A DNA stretch of 36,122 nt from assembly GCA_022796475.1 (NCBI GenBank), contig JAAWIS010000032.1:1-36122 (forward strand), written 5' to 3'. Numbering within the stretch: the first letter of the stretch is position 1; each line of letters starts with the position of its first letter. The notes below the pieces were generated by a model. It worked only from the letters and a program-made list of their open reading frames with translations. It searched no databases and was not told the origin of the DNA. Shown here in pieces: positions 260 to 16,540 of the stretch. Origin of the DNA: Lachnospiraceae bacterium (GTDB lineage: Bacteria > Bacillota > Clostridia > Lachnospirales > Lachnospiraceae). Made by a program: the position numbers and the translations under genes.

Positions 260-1075
260 ATGATTAAAACAGATTTTCATACTCACACAACTTACTGCGA
301 CGGAGAAAATACCCCCAGGGAAATGGTAGAAGCAGCGTACAGGAAAGGCTTTACTGACTTTGGCATTTCCGGGCATGGGGATTTTTCTTTATACGATCCA
401 GGTTTTGGAATGTCGGATTTGGCCTTTGAGCAGTATAAACAGGAATTATATGCTCTCCGTGAAGAATATGCCGGAAGGCTGAATCTATATATTGGCATTG
501 AACTGGACTGTTTAGGTCCGGTTCAGAAAGCAGAATATGCCATCGGATCTACACACTACGTGAAAAAAAACGGAGAGATATTAGCTGTAGATGATTCGGA
601 AACGAAGCTGGCAGATGGCGTCAGGCGGCTGTGGAACGGTGACTGGTATGCTTTTGCCAGAGAGTACTTTGAATTAGAAGCAACCGTTTTTGACAGAACC
701 GGCTGTGACTGGGTAGGGCATTTTGATCTGCTTACCAAGTTTAACGAAGGGTTTCGGTATTTCGATGAAACAAGGGATGAATATCTGGAACCGGCTCTGA
801 TGGCCATGAAGCGGCTGAATCAGGCCGGGCTGCCGTTTGAGATCAATACAGGAGCCATTTCCAGAGGCTATCGAAGCGCGCCCTACCCCTCTAAAACGTT
901 GCTGAAAGAACTGTTTGCCATGGGAGGGAGAATTATGATTCATTCCGACAGCCATAGTGTAAAAACCATAGGAAACGGATTTGAGCAGGCAAGAAGACTG
1001 GCGCTGGAATGTGGCTTTACCCGAGTGACCGTGCTAAAGCCCCATGGAGGATTCCGGGAGGTGCCCATAGAATAA
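260..1075 (+). CDS. hisK: Histidinol-phosphatase, PHP family
   Basis: This is a metal-dependent phosphoesterase of the PHP superfamily. Family members of this length (about 270 residues) hydrolyse L-histidinol phosphate to histidinol in histidine synthesis. The PHP metal ligands are visible: His-x-His at residues 7 and 9, the ISGHGD motif near residue 39, GIELD in the first third, GSTHY, DWVGHFD, and the terminal HSDSHS motif. The start is supported by GGAG at 246-249, ten bases upstream. No other his genes are nearby, so this is a stand-alone gene. Its last 42 bases overlap the 3' end of the convergent regulator gene. The family is clear; the exact substrate is inferred, since other PHP phosphatases look alike. 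Confidence 0.85.
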   Translation: MIKTDFHTHTTYCDGENTPREMVEAAYRKGFTDFGISGHGDFSLYDPGFGMSDLAFEQYKQELYALREEYAGRLNLYIGIELDCLGPVQKAEYAIGSTHYVKKNGEILAVDDSETKLADGVRRLWNGDWYAFAREYFELEATVFDRTGCDWVGHFDLLTKFNEGFRYFDETRDEYLEPALMAMKRLNQAGLPFEINTGAISRGYRSAPYPSKTLLKELFAMGGRIMIHSDSHSVKTIGNGFEQARRLALECGFTRVTVLKPHGGFREVPIE

Positions 1076-3418
1076 ATGGTGCTGCCGTACAACCCGTTCT
1101 TTTAACTGAAGCAAAAAAGTTTCAGGCCCAAGGATCCGGATTACAGGGCCAAAGGAAAGCAGATCAATCAAAAGTTCTGACTCATCTGCCAGATCGTAAT
1201 AAATCTGGCAGATCCAGGTATGTGTTTGCTCTTGATAGCAGGTGTGTTTTTCGTAATTTGCAAAATGGAGCATGCAGCGCTCTAAGGAATTCCGTTCTCC
1301 GCTGATCTCGATTACAACTGGATCTTGACAGCGTTTGACCGGACAAAATAAGTAAGAAGAGATCGTTTCAGGCGATTCCAGGCGGGATAAGTGGCAAGCT
1401 TTTATCCGACACAGATTCAGTACGGTATTTTGCCGGAAGCCGTGCTTTGTGTGCTTTAGGCAGCAAAGCCGGAATTTATTATCTTTCGCCGAATACTGTA
1501 GCTGATAAGGTGCGGCTTCAAATGTAGATAATGCATGGTATCGGTTTTCGTATACCAGGATCAAGGCACGTTTTTTGCGCAGCGCTGTTAAAACCGTAGA
1601 GAAATTTTCCTGATAGGAGGGAGAGGCGTAGTCATCGCCATCTAAATATTGGTCAAAATAGTAAAAGCTGTCTTGAGAGTAAAGGGCTTCTGTGCTGGAA
1701 AGCCAGTTTAGTAGCTGCTCTCTCTGCTGACTGGAGAGGAAAAGGGAAATTCGAGAATCTGCCAGCAGAGCTTTCAGCCATGACTTTTGAAGGCGGGTAA
1801 GAGGCAATCCTTTTGGGAGCAAAGGCTCAGAATGGATCAAAACCGTGGAAAAATGCTTGTCTGACATTTCTTTTAGCAGGGGCCATTCGCCATTCATTAA
1901 TTTAGGAATAATCACCAGCCCGCTTTCCAGATAGCCGTATTTCATAGAAAGTTCTGTCATCCGCTCCTTGTTAATAGGATTTTTCCTGGCATCTGCCAAG
2001 ATACGGCGGACAGCTTGGTAATAGCAGCCGTATATTTTATCAAAGAGTTCCGGGTGGCTGACAGGTTTCATACAGCGTTTAGGTTTCTCTATAAAAGCAG
2101 AAGAAGAGATAAGAGAGCCCTTAGTTTTTGGGCTGTGGGCAGTTTTTTGCCAGTTGGCAGGAAACTGCCTGTTCGTTTGGACTGTTCCATACATTTCATA
2201 CATTTTTTCTAAGTCGCCGGTAACTTTTTCTATGGCAGCGCTGCTGGTTCCCTGAATATCTAAAATTCGCCCGGTAAAGGATTTGATCCAGCCAAGCATT
2301 TCGTTTGTATCAAAAAAAGTACCGCTGTAAAGATATTCGTTTCTTCTGATTTTTAATACTTCTCCGCCCCGGCCTTCCCGGTACAGCCGGTTTATGATAT
2401 AAGGTTCCGTTTTCTCGTTTAGATAAAGTTTCAGATAAATTTCTTCTTTACGGTTATTTCCGCCAAATGAAACCCCCCAGCATTGCCCCAGATTCGTTTC
2501 AAGCTGCTGTTGTTTTTGCTCAAAGTCATGAAACACTTCCAGAAATGTTACATTTGCCATACAATCCAGCCGGTAATTGGTAAAGCGCCGCCGTTCTTCC
2601 AGATAAAGACAGGCATATCGCCGCCCGGTCTGAGTACTGACAAAAATTTTTAAAGGAATGCCCGTTACAATCGTAAGCCGCCTGGTGCGGCTGCTTTTAT
2701 TTTCAAACTGGATTTTTCTGTGCTCTTTCATAGCAGACAGCACATCAGCCAATACCCTGTCTTCCAATGTATGTACTATAAAGTGATGCTTAAATTGAAA
2801 CCATTTATTTTCCTCATTTTCCCGATCCAAAATGGTACTGCCGATAAAACCAAAAGGAGCAGCCTCCTGGAAAAAGGAAATTGCACAAAGCAGGTTCTGC
2901 CAGGTTTGCGCAGCCAGAGATTCAGGACCAGGGCACAGGCAGTATTGTAACCGCTTTCCCTTCTTTTCCGTTTTTAAAATTTCTAAGTCTTCATATTCTT
3001 TTAATTTCAGCCGGACTGTTTGAGCATCAAATACAAGACCATATTTTTGTGAAATTTCATCACACAAATCGCCGGCAGTCATTCCGTCAAACCGATCCCA
3101 CAGCAGATCAAGAAGAAAGAAATGAAGCAAAATATCATTATCCGTAAAACTTTTGGATTTCCAGGCAGCATAAAGGGGATTTTGCGGAATGGTTTTGCTG
3201 TCAACACTGATGTATACATGCTTTTCCTTTTGGGTATAGCCGGATTGGACGTAGCCAGACAGCCAGCTTTCTATCCGGCGCCGTTCATTATCATAAGTCC
3301 TGGCGCTTTTTTCTCCATAGTCGCTGCGGCTTTTAAAACCATAAATAAAAAATTGGCGCATATAGTCACGGATTCGGTCAAAATTTTTTATTAATTCCTG
3401 AAATTCTGTCATTGGCAT
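1034..3418 (-). CDS. Large tandem WYL-domain regulator
   Basis: A 794-residue cytoplasmic protein, probably a transcriptional regulator sensing a nucleotide-like or other ligand. A winged-helix region is seen around residues 111-160. A first WYL-like domain lies about 228-295 (MKEHRKIQFEN through RRFTNYRLD). A second WYL-like domain with a C-terminal extension lies about 635-790 (ALRKKRALILVYENRY onward). WYL regulators are usually 300-350 residues, so this resembles two such proteins fused. The start at 3418 (MPMTEFQEL) is chosen because AGGAAGGA sits 4-6 bases upstream; an in-frame ATG at 3478 would add 20 residues without a clear ribosome-binding site. It is divergent from the LacI-type gene and converges on hisK with a 42-base overlap. 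The target genes are unknown. Confidence 0.75.
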   Translation of the reverse strand: MPMTEFQELIKNFDRIRDYMRQFFIYGFKSRSDYGEKSARTYDNERRRIESWLSGYVQSGYTQKEKHVYISVDSKTIPQNPLYAAWKSKSFTDNDILLHFFLLDLLWDRFDGMTAGDLCDEISQKYGLVFDAQTVRLKLKEYEDLEILKTEKKGKRLQYCLCPGPESLAAQTWQNLLCAISFFQEAAPFGFIGSTILDRENEENKWFQFKHHFIVHTLEDRVLADVLSAMKEHRKIQFENKSSRTRRLTIVTGIPLKIFVSTQTGRRYACLYLEERRRFTNYRLDCMANVTFLEVFHDFEQKQQQLETNLGQCWGVSFGGNNRKEEIYLKLYLNEKTEPYIINRLYREGRGGEVLKIRRNEYLYSGTFFDTNEMLGWIKSFTGRILDIQGTSSAAIEKVTGDLEKMYEMYGTVQTNRQFPANWQKTAHSPKTKGSLISSSAFIEKPKRCMKPVSHPELFDKIYGCYYQAVRRILADARKNPINKERMTELSMKYGYLESGLVIIPKLMNGEWPLLKEMSDKHFSTVLIHSEPLLPKGLPLTRLQKSWLKALLADSRISLFLSSQQREQLLNWLSSTEALYSQDSFYYFDQYLDGDDYASPSYQENFSTVLTALRKKRALILVYENRYHALSTFEAAPYQLQYSAKDNKFRLCCLKHTKHGFRQNTVLNLCRIKACHLSRLESPETISSYLFCPVKRCQDPVVIEISGERNSLERCMLHFANYEKHTCYQEQTHTWICQIYYDLADESELLIDLLSFGPVIRILGPETFLLQLKERVVRQHHLFYGHLPESSMGL

Positions 3419-3515
3419 AGTTCCTTCCTCGATTGCAGGGCTGTATGGTTGGGCTGTATATTCGGGCTCGCCAAACAAAGGCAGCCGATTGATACGGCAT
3501 TCTGCCTATAATAAA

Positions 3516-12658: not shown

Positions 12659-12709
12659 AGCTAAATCGTGTTAAAAATAATCCTGAAAAGGGATGCATAA
12701 ATGCTGATA

Positions 12710-12747
12710 AAGGCTGTGGGTAAATAAGTTTACCTTCAGCCTTTTTT
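12710..12747 (+). terminator. Intrinsic terminator of the PEP-mutase/Liv operon
   Basis: AAGGCTG at 12710-12716 pairs with CAGCCTT starting at 12737, with an inner TAAA/TTTA pairing, followed by six T at 12742-12747. Confidence 0.85.
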
Positions 12748-12920
12748 GCTTTATAAGAACTTGCGTCTTATAAAGCAAAAACCCTCCGGGGGGATGCGCA
12801 CTTCGCGCTTAAGGAAACTGTCTGCTGGCGCAGACGCGCTCCGGCGCGAGAGTCCGGCAAGCCGGACTCTTTGTTCTTTATAAGAACTTGCGTCCTATAA
12901 AGCAAAAACCCTCCGGGGGA
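12748..12920. repeat. Dispersed hairpin-rich repeat, copy 1 plus a partial unit
   Basis: The element begins with a perfect 10-bp stem (12748-12757 with 12767-12776), then AAAAACCCTCCGG and four GC-rich hairpins: GCGC/GCGC near 12796-12808, GTCTGC-TGGC-GCAGAC, GCGC-TCCG-GCGC and a 10-bp stem 12849-12858/12861-12870. A second near-copy of the leading hairpin plus AAAAACCCTCCGGGGGAT follows at 12876-12921, so about 46 bases are directly repeated at both ends. A second full copy lies at 29501-29625. No coding capacity is seen. It fills most of the gap before rtcB. Confidence 0.8.
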
Positions 12921-12997
12921 TTTATAAGTTCGCAACTTTTTTTAAATGATAAATTTTTCTGTTTCCGGTAAGATATGGGAAGAAAGGATGTGAGGGT

Positions 12998-14233
12998 ATG
13001 TTTGTATTATACGAAAAAGAACAAATGAAGTTTCCGGTAAAGGTCTGGCTGGAAACGAGAGAGGATTTAGAAAGCAGTTGCATGGAGCAGGCATATCATT
13101 TGTCAAAACTGCCCTTTCTCCATAAATGGGTCTGCCTGATGCCGGATACCCATGCCGGGAAAGGGATGCCTATCGGAGGAGTAATTGCCGCAAAGGATGT
13201 GCTGATTCCCAATGCAGTAGGCGTGGATATCGGATGCGGGATGGCATATACGGAAACCAATATCCGTTTGGAAGAAGTGAAGGGAATTGTAACCGGAAAT
13301 GGAACCTTAATACAGGCAATCATCGGTGATATTATGCGGAATATTCCGGTGGGGTTTGCTCACCATAAAATGGGAATGCCCTGTTATACATTGGATCAGG
13401 CTTTCGAGGAAATGGAGCGGTATGAAAAGGACGGGGAGCTTCTTGGACAGTTAGAAGCAGGATATTTCCAGATAGGAACATTGGGAGGCGGGAACCATTT
13501 TATTGAGCTTCAGGCAGATGAAAAGGGCTTTCTATCTGTCATGCTCCATTCCGGAAGCCGGCATTTTGGCAAGTCTGTATGTGATTATTTTCATAATAAA
13601 GCCAGGATATTAAATCAGAGGTGGTACAGCCAGGTTCCGGAAGAATACCGCCTGGCCTTCCTTCCGGCAGATTCGGATGAAGGGGAGCAGTACAAAAACT
13701 GGATGAACCTTTCTATGGAGTTTGCCCGGGAAAACAGAGAGAAAATGATGCTTGCGGTAAAAGCGATAATTGAAAAATGGATTGGAAAATATACTTCTAT
13801 TTCCTTGGAATTTTCCCATGACATAAACTGCCATCATAACTATGCAGCCCTGGAAAACCACTATGGGGAAAATGTGTGGGTTCACCGGAAAGGCGCTGTC
13901 CGGGCAAGAGATGGAGAATTAGCTGTGATCCCGGGAGCAATGGGCTCTTACAGTTATGTAGTTATGGGAAAAGGGAACCCGGAAAGCTTTTGTTCTTCCT
14001 CTCATGGAGCAGGAAGGCGCTATTCCAGAAAAGGGGCAATGGCTGCATTTACCTGTGAGCAGGTAATACAGGATTTAACAAAACAGGGAGTTGTTCTTGG
14101 GAAAAAGGGAAAGGCAGATGTGGCGGAAGAAAGCCGGTTTGCTTACAAAGATATTGAAACAGTTATGGATAATCAGCAGGATCTGGTTGTTCCGGTTAAA
14201 CGGTTGAAAACAGTAGGTGTTGTAAAAGGCTGA
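12998..14233 (+). CDS. rtcB: RNA-splicing/repair ligase RtcB
   Basis: A 411-residue GTP/Mn2+-dependent ligase that joins RNA 2',3'-cyclic phosphate or 3'-phosphate ends to 5'-OH ends. All family motifs are present: MPDTHAGKG (48-56), GVDIGCGM with Asp77 and Cys80 as metal ligands, GGGNHFIE (163-170), LHSGSRH (183-189), HRKGA (296-300), PGAMGS (312-317) and the guanylylation site SSHGAGR with His336. The length fits the shorter bacterial RtcB group. The ribosome-binding region is weak (AAAGGATGTGAGGG). No RtcA, RtcR or sigma-54 promoter is seen. The gene is followed by a permuted tRNA-like RNA and a slipin gene on the same strand, an association known for RNA-repair systems. Confidence 0.95.
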   Translation: MFVLYEKEQMKFPVKVWLETREDLESSCMEQAYHLSKLPFLHKWVCLMPDTHAGKGMPIGGVIAAKDVLIPNAVGVDIGCGMAYTETNIRLEEVKGIVTGNGTLIQAIIGDIMRNIPVGFAHHKMGMPCYTLDQAFEEMERYEKDGELLGQLEAGYFQIGTLGGGNHFIELQADEKGFLSVMLHSGSRHFGKSVCDYFHNKARILNQRWYSQVPEEYRLAFLPADSDEGEQYKNWMNLSMEFARENREKMMLAVKAIIEKWIGKYTSISLEFSHDINCHHNYAALENHYGENVWVHRKGAVRARDGELAVIPGAMGSYSYVVMGKGNPESFCSSSHGAGRRYSRKGAMAAFTCEQVIQDLTKQGVVLGKKGKADVAEESRFAYKDIETVMDNQQDLVVPVKRLKTVGVVKG

Positions 14234-14351
14234 CAAAATAAATTTGGCTAAATGGCCAAAGTAAGGATATGCTCCTAAGCTTTAGGGTTTGCTTTTAGAA
14301 GCCGCCCTTGGGGTGCCGGCAGCCATGCTGCCTGGTATACCGGGCATAGCC

Positions 14352-14428
14352 TTGACACGATGTTCGCAGGTTCAAATCCTGCCCATGTTTTAGGAACATG
14401 CGTAGCTAAGTGGTATAGCAATCGTCAA
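14352..14428 (+). ncRNA. Circularly permuted tRNA-like RNA between rtcB and slipin
   Basis: Every tRNA arm is present but the order is permuted. Read 5' to 3': anticodon-stem 3' strand ACGAT (14357-14361), variable loop GTTC, T arm GCAGG-TTCAAAT-CCTGC (14366-14382), acceptor 3' strand CATGTT (14384-14389), a 5-base loop TTAGG, acceptor 5' strand AACATG (14395-14400), the U8-A9 equivalent TA (14403-14404), D arm GCTA-AGTGGTA-TAGC (14405-14419), and anticodon-stem 5' strand ATCGT (14421-14425). The T loop has the TTCRANT form and the D loop has the GG needed for the elbow contact. The helix continues outward with TTG (14352-14354) and CAA (14426-14428) across a 2-base bulge. The full transcript is probably longer (about 14290-14533). 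No normal tRNA can be drawn here. Confidence 0.8.
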
Positions 14429-14432
14429 TGTA

Positions 14433-14533
14433 TTTCTTGCTGTATGCAGGAGAAACCAAAAAAGGAAGAACCCCGGCGCCGGGCCATTAGGCATTTCGGC
14501 TGCAGCCAGCGCCGGACTGGATACCGCTTTTTT
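14433..14533 (+). ncRNA. 3' hairpins and possible terminator of the tRNA-like RNA
   Basis: TTTCT-TGC (14433-14440) pairs with GCA-GG-AGAAA (14446-14455) around TGTAT. CCGGCGC (14473-14479) pairs with GCGCCGG (14509-14515). Six T follow at 14528-14533 after a 12-base gap, so termination here is plausible but not textbook. On the 5' side, GGCAGC-CAT-GCTGCC (14318-14332) and CCTGG-TATA-CCGGG (14331-14344) overlap as alternative stems. Confidence 0.4.
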
Positions 14534-14581
14534 CAATGAAAGTTCAGCCATGCCAAGGTGAGAGGGAGGCATGACGAAATG

Positions 14582-14626
14582 ATTGTGCTGATACATTTAG
14601 CTGAAATGTAAAGGTGTCAGCACAAT
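14582..14626. other. Long bulged hairpin in the rtcB-slipin gap
   Basis: A 10-bp stem ATTGTGCTGA/TCAGCACAAT (14582-14591 with 14617-14626) encloses a 7-bp stem TACATTT/AAATGTA (14592-14598 with 14604-14610), leaving a 6-base bulge AAGGTG on one side only. A second 8-bp stem lies at 14647-14654/14663-14670. No terminator T-run follows either. Confidence 0.6.
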
Positions 14627-14689
14627 AGAAAGAGAAAAAAGCTGAAAGTCCGGCCCCTGACAGCCGGATTAGAGTGTGTCTGAAAATTC

Positions 14690-14726
14690 ATTCCCGCTCT
14701 AGGGCCGGGGAATTTCTTTTGTTTTT
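14690..14726 (+). terminator. Possible intrinsic terminator before the slipin gene
   Basis: ATTCCC (14690-14695) pairs with GGGAAT (14708-14713), followed by TTCTTTTGTTTTT. It would end the RNA unit started upstream and separate it from slipin. Confidence 0.45.
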
Positions 14727-14776
14727 GAAACCGGGGTAAAGAGGAAAGGGTTAATCGGCCAGAAGGCTGTAACCTA

Positions 14777-14785
14777 TGGTATAAA
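14777..14785 (+). promoter_or_regulatory. Possible extended -10 promoter of slipin
   Basis: TGGTATAAA at 14777-14785 fits an extended -10 (TGnTATAAT-like). No good -35 is seen. Transcription would begin near 14792, just before the regulatory stem in the leader. Confidence 0.4.
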
Positions 14786-14794
14786 ACAGAGAAC

Positions 14795-14853
14795 GATTAC
14801 CCTCAGCAGACTGTGTGTAATCTATTCTGCTGAGGGCAGCAAAAGGAGGGTAA
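14795..14853 (+). promoter_or_regulatory. Slipin leader with competing anti-SD and anti-anti-SD pairings
   Basis: CCCTCAGCAGA (14800-14810) forms an 11-bp stem with TCTGCTGAGGG (14826-14836). The same strand, TTACCCTC (14797-14804), is perfectly complementary over 8 bases to GAGGGTAA (14846-14853), which contains the ribosome-binding site of slipin. The two pairings exclude each other, and GATTAC (14795-14800) can also pair with GTAATC (14817-14822). This is the layout of a translational switch. The hairpin form, with the ribosome-binding site free, should be the more stable one. Confidence 0.5.
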
Positions 14854-14860
14854 GATAATT

Positions 14861-15973
14861 ATGAAAATAATGATCCAGGAGCAGGAATGCGGATATTTAT
14901 TAAAAAATGGATGCTTTCAAAAGATTTTGCTGGCTGGCAAATATACATATTTTAAAAAGCTGGGGTATGAAGTAATTACAGTTTCCATGACTGGTCAGGT
15001 AAAAACTTCTGGAATTCCGACAGAAGTTTTGATGAAATGTCCTGATTTTGCATCTCGTGTGATAAAAGTACAAATTCCCGATACATCAATTGCCATCCGT
15101 TTTGTGAATGGTGCTTATCGGGAAGTGCTGACAGCAGCAGAAACCTATTTTTGGAATGTATTTGAAGCGAATGAATTCCAGGTGATTGATATTACCAGCC
15201 CATATATGGAAAACTCGCTGCCAAGAATGTATATGGATTTAATGCCTGTAAAGTTTTATAAGAAAATTACGGTTAAGGAAGGAGAGATTGGCCTGCTGTA
15301 TTTTGACAACCGGATGGAGAAAAGGCTGGAAGCTGGAACTTACTATTTTTGGAATTATGGGACTGAGGTAACCTGCAGAGTCTTTAATATGAAACTGCAG
15401 CAATTGGAGATTTCCGGGCAGGAGATTCTGACAGCCGATAAAGTTGGAGTCCGCTTAAATGTTATCTGCAACTACCGGATAACAGAGCCGGAAGAATTGG
15501 CGAAAAAGATAGACAGTGTATCTTCGCAGCTTTACACATGTGCACAGTTGATTATCCGGGAATACGTGGGCCGTTACCGCCTGGATGAATTGCTGGCTCA
15601 GAAGGAGGCGATCAGCGGATTGATTTTGGAATCCATGAGAGCACACCAGAAGGAACTGTGTGTGGAAGTGGTAAATGGAGGGATTAAAGATATGATCTTG
15701 CCAGGAGAAATCAGAGATATTATGAATACCGTGCTGGTTGCTGAGAAAAAAGCCCAGGCAAATGTAATTATGCGCCGGGAAGAGGTAGCTTCCACCAGAA
15801 GTCTTTTAAATACGGCAAAGCTGATGGAGGAGAACCAGACACTGTTTCGGCTCAAGGAGCTGGAATATGTGGAACGAATTTGTGATAAAGTAGGAAACAT
15901 TTCGCTAAATGGAGGAAACAGCATTTTAGAACAGCTATCAAAGCTTACAGGCGCGAAAACAGATTTTGCTTGA
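14861..15973 (+). CDS. Slipin / SPFH (Band 7) domain protein without membrane anchor
   Basis: A 370-residue protein with an SPFH/Band-7 domain at about 138-320 (VKEGEIGLLYFDN, then EILTADKVGVRLNVICNYRI), followed by a helical C-terminal part from about 270. Unlike most slipins it has no N-terminal hydrophobic anchor, so it should be cytoplasmic or only peripherally bound. The head strand pattern occurs three times: residues 7-42, 70-110 and 138-175, each with an Asn or Asp-Asn turn and an aromatic Tyr-x-Phe/Phe-Trp pair. SPFH proteins form large oligomers. Its neighbourhood with RtcB and a tRNA-like RNA matches the proposal that such proteins scaffold RtcB-based RNA repair; that role is inference. 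AAAGGAGGG precedes the ATG by 10 bases. Confidence 0.85.
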   Translation: MKIMIQEQECGYLLKNGCFQKILLAGKYTYFKKLGYEVITVSMTGQVKTSGIPTEVLMKCPDFASRVIKVQIPDTSIAIRFVNGAYREVLTAAETYFWNVFEANEFQVIDITSPYMENSLPRMYMDLMPVKFYKKITVKEGEIGLLYFDNRMEKRLEAGTYYFWNYGTEVTCRVFNMKLQQLEISGQEILTADKVGVRLNVICNYRITEPEELAKKIDSVSSQLYTCAQLIIREYVGRYRLDELLAQKEAISGLILESMRAHQKELCVEVVNGGIKDMILPGEIRDIMNTVLVAEKKAQANVIMRREEVASTRSLLNTAKLMEENQTLFRLKELEYVERICDKVGNISLNGGNSILEQLSKLTGAKTDFA

Positions 15974-16054
15974 ATCTTCGTGAGATTTCGTCTATGATGG
16001 ATGGTGAGAGTGGCAGTTAAGGAAGATACTGGATGAAATCAGGAGGATTGCGTT

Positions 16055-16540
16055 ATGGAGCAGGAAAAGAAAGAAGGAAAAGAGAGTTACCTGGTGGCAT
16101 GCCCAGTGGAGGGGGAAGTAATTCCTCTGGCCCAAGTGCCGGATACCTCTTTGGCTTATGGAATGTTAGGGCCAGGTGTGGGAATTCTTCCGGAGAAGGG
16201 AATAGCAGTAGCACCTTTTGACGGTGAGGTATCCGCACTGTTTGATACGAAACATGCTATGGGTCTTACCAGTGACGACGGCGGTGTGGAAGTGCTGATT
16301 CATATTGGGATTAATACTGTTGAATTAAAAGGAATGTATCTGTCAGCCCTTGTAGAAGCAGGAGATCATGTGAAAAAAGGGCAGCCGCTGCTGAAATTTG
16401 ATATTGAAAAGATTAAAGAAGCCGGATATGATACAACAGTGGCTGTGGTAGTATCAAACTTATACCTTTTTCCAAAGATTGAGGTATTGGGATATGGCCG
16501 GAAACAGGAACTGGAGGATCTTTTGGCCTGCGGACAGTAA
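16055..16540 (+). CDS. Stand-alone PTS EIIA component, glucose family
   Basis: A 161-residue EIIA-Glc-type phosphocarrier. It takes phosphate from HPr and passes it to a membrane EIIB/EIIC. The phosphorylated His lies in EVLIHIGINTVEL (His83) and the second conserved active-site His in TKHAMGLTS (His67). GPGVGILPEKG and APFDGEVSALF are further family blocks. No EIIB, EIIC or HPr gene is close, so it must serve a transporter encoded elsewhere or act in regulation. CAGGAGGA precedes the ATG by 8 bases. Clustering with the RNA-repair genes may be accidental. Confidence 0.9.
   Translation: MEQEKKEGKESYLVACPVEGEVIPLAQVPDTSLAYGMLGPGVGILPEKGIAVAPFDGEVSALFDTKHAMGLTSDDGGVEVLIHIGINTVELKGMYLSALVEAGDHVKKGQPLLKFDIEKIKEAGYDTTVAVVVSNLYLFPKIEVLGYGRKQELEDLLACGQ

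Follow-up and report, generated by a model that had tools for sequence, protein, structure and literature searches.

Repair modules in which SPFH/Band-7 proteins act as scaffolds with a tRNA-like RNA were reportedly proposed by Burroughs and Aravind in 2016. An excerpt of PMC13404743, which cites that work, links bacterial MVP homologs with operon non-coding RNAs to RNA repair and places them in operons together with RtcB. Excerpts of three further papers mention both kinds of gene: the rtc locus of P. aeruginosa contains an SPFH gene (PMC13086221), a slipin gene and rtcB of Anabaena are listed in the same table, within a section about genes under TrcR (PMC10272220), and changes in a slipin gene and in rtcB were seen for which erythromycin is a possible cause (PMC9938897). 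A module of SPFH protein, RtcB and tRNA-like RNA is already known as a kind. We analysed a cassette of this kind in a 36,122-nucleotide stretch of DNA from a Lachnospiraceae bacterium of the gut (contig JAAWIS010000032.1; this whole stretch is the window), where rtcB (12998..14233) and a soluble slipin gene (14861..15973), both on the forward strand, are separated by a gap of 627 bases. The ligase motifs, the SPFH operon partner and the conserved RNA of the module were all found.

The gap holds, on the forward strand, a permuted tRNA-like unit at 14357..14425, delimited by sequence inspection, core alignment and a core model. A 5-bp closing helix resembling an anticodon stem (14357-14361/14421-14425) encloses a T arm (14366-14382), a sealed acceptor-like hairpin (14384-14400) and a D arm (14405-14419). 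This arm order is that of a circularly permuted tRNA whose chain enters and exits at the anticodon. The acceptor-like stem has about five pairs, a short loop and no CCA. About ten bases past the closing helix starts an anticodon-like hairpin, UCUUG.CUGUAUG.CAGGA (14435..14451), recognized by eye, with the triplet GUA by position. The conserved RNA extends beyond its tRNA-like part, with a 5' hairpin bearing the internal loop UG/UAUA (14312..14341, found by the hairpin rule given below) and a 3' segment (14473..14526) made up of a hairpin drawn by eye (14473-14479/14509-14515) and the conserved GGATACCG (14519-14526). An earlier note on this DNA had described a non-coding RNA with swapped tRNA halves and every arm of the fold. 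The swapped halves were borne out, and the statement on the arms was right in essence, with the amendment that the anticodon stem is the closing helix and the anticodon-like hairpin stands apart from it.

Neither ARAGORN nor Rfam at the gathering score made a call in the rtcB-slipin gap, and the only Rfam matches at that score in the window were two tRNAs. A permissive scan of the gap gave YrlA (RF02553) at 25.6 bits against a cut-off of 69. Run on the whole genome of the bacterium, the core model gave one strong match, the window RNA (60.5 bits); the next-best match (32.5 bits) adjoined tandem tRNAs.

Upstream of slipin, the RNA recurs in different phyla as a conserved, covarying structure. 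Scanning genomes with the window slipin gave a starting set of 50 loci, and with loci from further genomes and plasmid records it grew to 94 de-duplicated stretches upstream of slipin. A T loop was present at most 640 bases upstream of slipin in 83 of the 94 (antisense, 3) and a GATACCG-like sequence within 500 bases in 70 (antisense, 7), counts that refer to loci of shared ancestry, which are not phylogenetically independent, since de-duplication dropped identical ends only. For the pairing analysis, 39 permuted cores were aligned by sequence alone; they came from 44 stretches that included the window as L001, with L054, L063, L078, L083 and L084 left out. In this alignment, whose rows are related and whose structure had been suggested by such sequences, 95.2% of cells were paired, compared with 69.0% when partners were shuffled and 39.5-48.4% when they were slid. 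Both-sided changes occurred at 16 of 19 pairs, including all five of the closing helix, and the covariation was 0.665 against 0.209 for the shuffled control. The window row sits one base out of register in the closing stem. The permuted structure is more than chance, and homologous gaps hold the conserved, covarying structure on which the earlier note had staked its proposal.

Comparison of the relatives showed that the RNA is a constant frame, formed by the 5' hairpin with its UG/UAUR internal loop and the 3' GGATACCG, around a tRNA-like insert subject to loss. The 5' hairpin rule (internal loop UG/UAUR or CAUG) held in 44 of 82 loci, some of which look accidental (e.g. L018, L050, L067, L076), compared with a mean of 6.3 and a maximum of 12 in 20 shuffled runs. 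In L056 and L019 the frame was kept and no T arm was seen, apparently a natural loss of the insert; as the frame persists there, the insert is dispensable for it. In L095 the promoter was present and the RNA apparently lost. A gene of about 210 aa separates the RNA from slipin in L093, L094 and L096.

The permuted loci have the order T-acceptor-D, and a second T arm was frequent in Clostridial and Lachnospiraceae relatives. Some Oscillospiraceae (L018) showed by eye the order AC-T-acceptor-D, where AC is the anticodon arm, and the Photobacterium and Burkholderia relatives have the normal tRNA arm order. Tandem tRNA genes mimic the permuted unit, which makes a tandem tRNA a plausible origin of the RNA. 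Inserts of six loci passed the Rfam tRNA cut-off (L083 2660-2729, L084 2662-2799, L045 7383-7453, L047 7672-7743, L048 1154-1235 and L031 7550-7606), and these may carry real-tRNA annotations.

Anticodon-like arms were counted under a strict rule (loop YU-NNN-A[AC], stem of at least 4, with T, acceptor and D arms masked). The count set had 91 loci, 83 of them with a T arm in the stretch used; L117 was added, and L042 and L043 (no RNA seen) as well as L078 and L079 (partial matches, taken as other SPFH proteins) were omitted. An arm was found in 22 of the 83 RNAs, against 3.03 ± 1.50 in dinucleotide shuffles (maximum 7 in 100). GUN made up 13 of the 22 triplets (GUC 5, GUA 5, GUU 3, GUG none) compared with 0.19 expected; the others were GAA (3), GAC (2), CAA (2), UUU (1) and UCC (1). 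Raising the minimum stem to 5 left 16 RNAs with an arm (0.89 in shuffles), 8 of them GUN. A looser run, in which acceptor hairpins were left unmasked, gave 25 CUNNNRA loops in the 83 RNAs against 0.81 (maximum 4), with 2 in antisense. The form of the loop was constant across arms while the stems varied.

By eye, relatives carry arms at the corresponding place. Window-type loci showed GUA (window, L003), GUC (L004), AGG (L005) and GUU (L009), and the relatives overall GUA, GUC, GUU, AGG, UCC, UUC and GAA. On a hand list, 16 of 41 loops were identical to real anticodon loops among the 95 tRNAs of the loci, an illustration rather than a test because the list was chosen by eye; the window loop is outside these 16. 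The GUC loops on the list were mostly CUGUCAA, and the sole real tRNA-Asp there has CUGUCAC. Colicin E5 and nucleases of its type cut queuosine (GUN) tRNAs. Queuosine is borne by GUN anticodons, as stated in the abstract of PMC12313893. The species-varying arm suggests a bait or sensor for tRNA-cutting enzymes.

The protein partners agree with what the earlier note had read from them. RtcB, the 411-aa RNA 3'-phosphate/5'-OH ligase, matched Pfam PF01139 at 363.5 bits and carries DIGCG, GGGNHFIE, HSGSRHFG, HRKGA, IPGAMG and SSHGAGR, which we take to be RtcB's own motifs; residues 22-411 aligned with the solved RtcB 1uc2. Judged by these catalytic motifs, the predicted enzyme is intact. The genome has a second, distant rtcB (L002, C54:43024-44103) with 29% identity to that of the window. 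The 370-aa slipin matched Band_7 at 80.5 bits and has no membrane segment, its highest 19-residue Kyte-Doolittle mean being 0.92. Its fold resembles the stomatin/prohibitin core and the vault-protein shoulder with cap helix. Two short beta repeats at the N-terminus showed a weak likeness to vault repeats, and a fold search with these repeats alone gave nothing clear.

Among the 50 loci drawn by slipin, a sampling that would miss an RNA beside rtcB alone, 12 had rtcB upstream and 20 had it downstream; in the other 18 (some of them short contigs) none was found in the vicinity. These loci carry the RNA with or without rtcB nearby.

The cassette is preceded by a conserved promoter element, AGTTCGCAACTTTTTTT (12927..12943, forward strand), which recurs at many slipin loci, and by a downstream -10-like TAAGAT (12969-12974). 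As far as an uncontrolled comparison shows, the element GTTCGCARCTTTTTT and its downstream -10-like site stand ahead of rtcB at window-type loci (12927 in the window) and ahead of the RNA in Oscillospiraceae. The exceptions were L035 and L040, each with an opposite-strand match elsewhere, and L018, whose element is about 2.3 kb upstream. A genome-wide search for the element with 3 mismatches was rejected as noise (37 forward and 36 reverse matches, compared with 64 and 56 for the reversed pattern), and consensus scans of 12700-16060 were near chance (promoters 5 vs 5.4, terminators 5 vs 3.6).

Pfam WYL/WCX regulators adjoin the cassettes of L016, L035 and L049; the second regulator protein fell just below the WCX cut-off in L016 and had no match in L035. 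Similar regulators were seen by eye at L012, L020, L026, L030, L039 and L047. In the window, an 814-aa open reading frame with a WYL domain (1034..3478, reverse strand) lies about 9.5 kb from rtcB; by eye, it apparently unites in one protein the two WYL/WCX-type regulators that flank related cassettes as a pair. The Citrobacter relative adjoins rtcR with an RlaP nucleotidyltransferase, and sigma-54-like sites were seen by eye before the RNA in E. coli, Citrobacter, Burkholderia and Photobacterium.

Counting the own genome, 16 of 299 family genomes and 12 of 391 class genomes (two of these weak and partial) had a slipin relative; further relatives came from 19 of 345 genomes from the order of G436 and 9 of 72,556 plasmid records, and none was found among the phages or viral contigs searched. 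The E. coli slipin region was present in 1624 of 5426 complete genomes (~30%), at 1629 places, all chromosomal. In E. coli WAT (L148 4001-6217), slipin and a nucleotidyltransferase gene lie between rluF/yjbD and lysC, with a T arm and an acceptor-like hairpin upstream; a gene of the zeta toxin family is close by. The E. coli relative offers a handle, though its RNA looks reduced.

A core-model search for the RNA without slipin was dropped, as 298 of 299 family genomes matched; the search is unspecific because tandem tRNAs match, and most of the weaker matches are presumably tandem tRNAs. Among 13 core-model loci checked with ARAGORN, L123, L128, L141 and L142 had tRNA genes at the match, and L111, L112, L113 and L121 were slipin loci. 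The remaining five (L117, L118, L120, L125, L126) come from genomes without a slipin match in the family scan. L117 has rtcB, the RNA and a slipin remnant, with a YrlA score of 40.6 bits; L118, L125 and L126 have YrlA-like RNAs (46.5-53.6 bits, under the cut-off of 69), and L120 scored 33.8 bits with the same model. L125 adjoins rtcB, L126 adjoins a protein that matches WCX weakly, and both border proteins of about 480 aa that have no Pfam match and look alike by eye. In L125 and L126, the same regulators possibly control a different RNA with a different partner.

Taking the parts together, we give a probability of about 45% to the reading that the cassette is a stress-induced ribonucleoprotein for damaged tRNA. 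Its parts, their conservation and their context were observed, and from them we infer a mechanism. Cutting of tRNA would lead the WYL regulators to switch on transcription of the cassette. The RNA would act in trans as a tRNA mimic with a sealed acceptor end, its chain entering and exiting at the expected cut site of an anticodon nuclease. The vault-like SPFH protein may form a cage that holds this RNA, and the RNA would bring RtcB to broken tRNAs or keep the nuclease away. In some relatives, the added anticodon arm would make the mimic resemble a particular tRNA, mostly a GUN one; because the mimic then looks tRNA-specific, it could serve as bait or gauge for the damaging nuclease. The decoy, sensor or scaffold role put forward in the earlier note is a conjecture, as the note itself had said.

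A doubtful though possible extension sees in the RNA a modular tRNA impostor, a frame with an interchangeable insert and a triplet-switching, GUN-biased arm, which would present a fake tRNA matching the prevailing nuclease and be resealed by RtcB in the SPFH cage. Cutting of this displayed, repairable fake tRNA would sense or absorb the attack. If true, a varying-triplet arm on a sealed mimic would be a direct, testable reason for the RNAs of RNA-repair operons. Several results weigh against the anticodon-like arms: 61 of 83 RNAs failed the strict arm rule, the window loop CUGUAUG failed it at position 37 (U37) and fits by eye only, the loops of L004 and L009 are not 7 nt, and no such arm is present at the loci of E. 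coli and Citrobacter. Against the RNA structure of the window, the single-sequence fold of 14234-14560 was unremarkable (z −1.40; 10 of 100 shuffles folded equally well).

The bait reading of the arm is the boldest, and two rivals appear live. The tRNA-like part might serve to dock RtcB or the exonuclease PNPase to the cage of SPFH protein, the arm then being a docking hairpin rather than bait. This arrangement would repeat that of Rsr, tethered to PNPase by YrlA (excerpt of PMC8394870). The T, acceptor and D arms are the same as in YrlA, with the sub-threshold YrlA scores of the window and L117 pointing the same way; however, docking leaves the varying GUN-biased triplet without a reason, and neither YrlA (E≤0.001) nor TROVE/Rsr had a match anywhere in the own assembly (95.6% complete), which extends to the whole genome the earlier note's remark that the window has no TROVE gene. 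On balance docking is unlikely. Control in cis, with the RNA as a 5' leader of the slipin mRNA that senses broken or uncharged tRNA in a T-box-like manner, seems more improbable. The RNA was sense and upstream of slipin wherever found (the upstream side being the one examined), GGATACCG is often 120-200 nt from the slipin start, and by eye conserved patches continue toward the start codon. However, the intervening gene of L093, L094 and L096 separates such a leader from slipin, the window had no Rfam T-box match at the gathering score, and the arms build a permuted tRNA, not the tRNA-binding stem I that T-boxes have.

We consider it very unlikely that tRNA is uninvolved and that the RNA is structural glue of the SPFH cage, comparable to vault RNA. 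The vault-like fold of the SPFH part speaks for such glue, whereas the anticodon-like arms exceeded chance and the frame of L056 and L019 survives without the insert it would not need. Least probable of the explanations weighed is that a permuted tRNA gene here yields a working tRNA through circularisation and processing, or that the unit is a remnant of tandem tRNA genes. Imitation of the unit by tandem tRNAs, the matching of nearly all family genomes (298/299) by the core model with tRNA genes at 4 of 13 checked loci, and the six inserts above the Rfam tRNA cut-off (L031, L045, L047, L048, L083, L084) would fit it; set against these are the missing tRNA call, the acceptor-like stem of about 5 pairs with its short closing loop and no CCA, and the strong covariation and fixed frame.

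Among known RNAs, YrlA shares with the window RNA the permuted succession of its tRNA-like T, acceptor-like and D arms. Unlike YrlA with Rsr, the window RNA scored under the cut-off, has no Rsr, has other flanks and bears an added anticodon-like arm. Circularly permuted tRNA genes also have the T half before the D half; in contrast to them, the window RNA ends in a sealed short acceptor hairpin, and it lacks both the tRNA model match and the 7-bp acceptor stem with CCA expected of a tRNA gene. The vault particle shares with the cassette the SPFH shoulder and cap helix fold and a small RNA partner. Unlike MVP, the window slipin has 370 aa and two short beta repeats weakly matching vault repeats, and its RNA is tRNA-like. 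Among the top-ranked papers listed in literature searches, none was seen to describe an anticodon arm of varying triplet for this RNA, though the 2016 paper may do so. RtcB, a soluble vault-related SPFH protein and a tRNA-like operon RNA are common to the SPFH/Band-7 RNA-repair module and the window cassette. Compared with the module reportedly proposed in 2016, which may itself include any of these features, the present cassette shows a covarying permuted order, a frame with an exchangeable insert, a variable anticodon arm and a promoter element shared among loci with WYL regulators.

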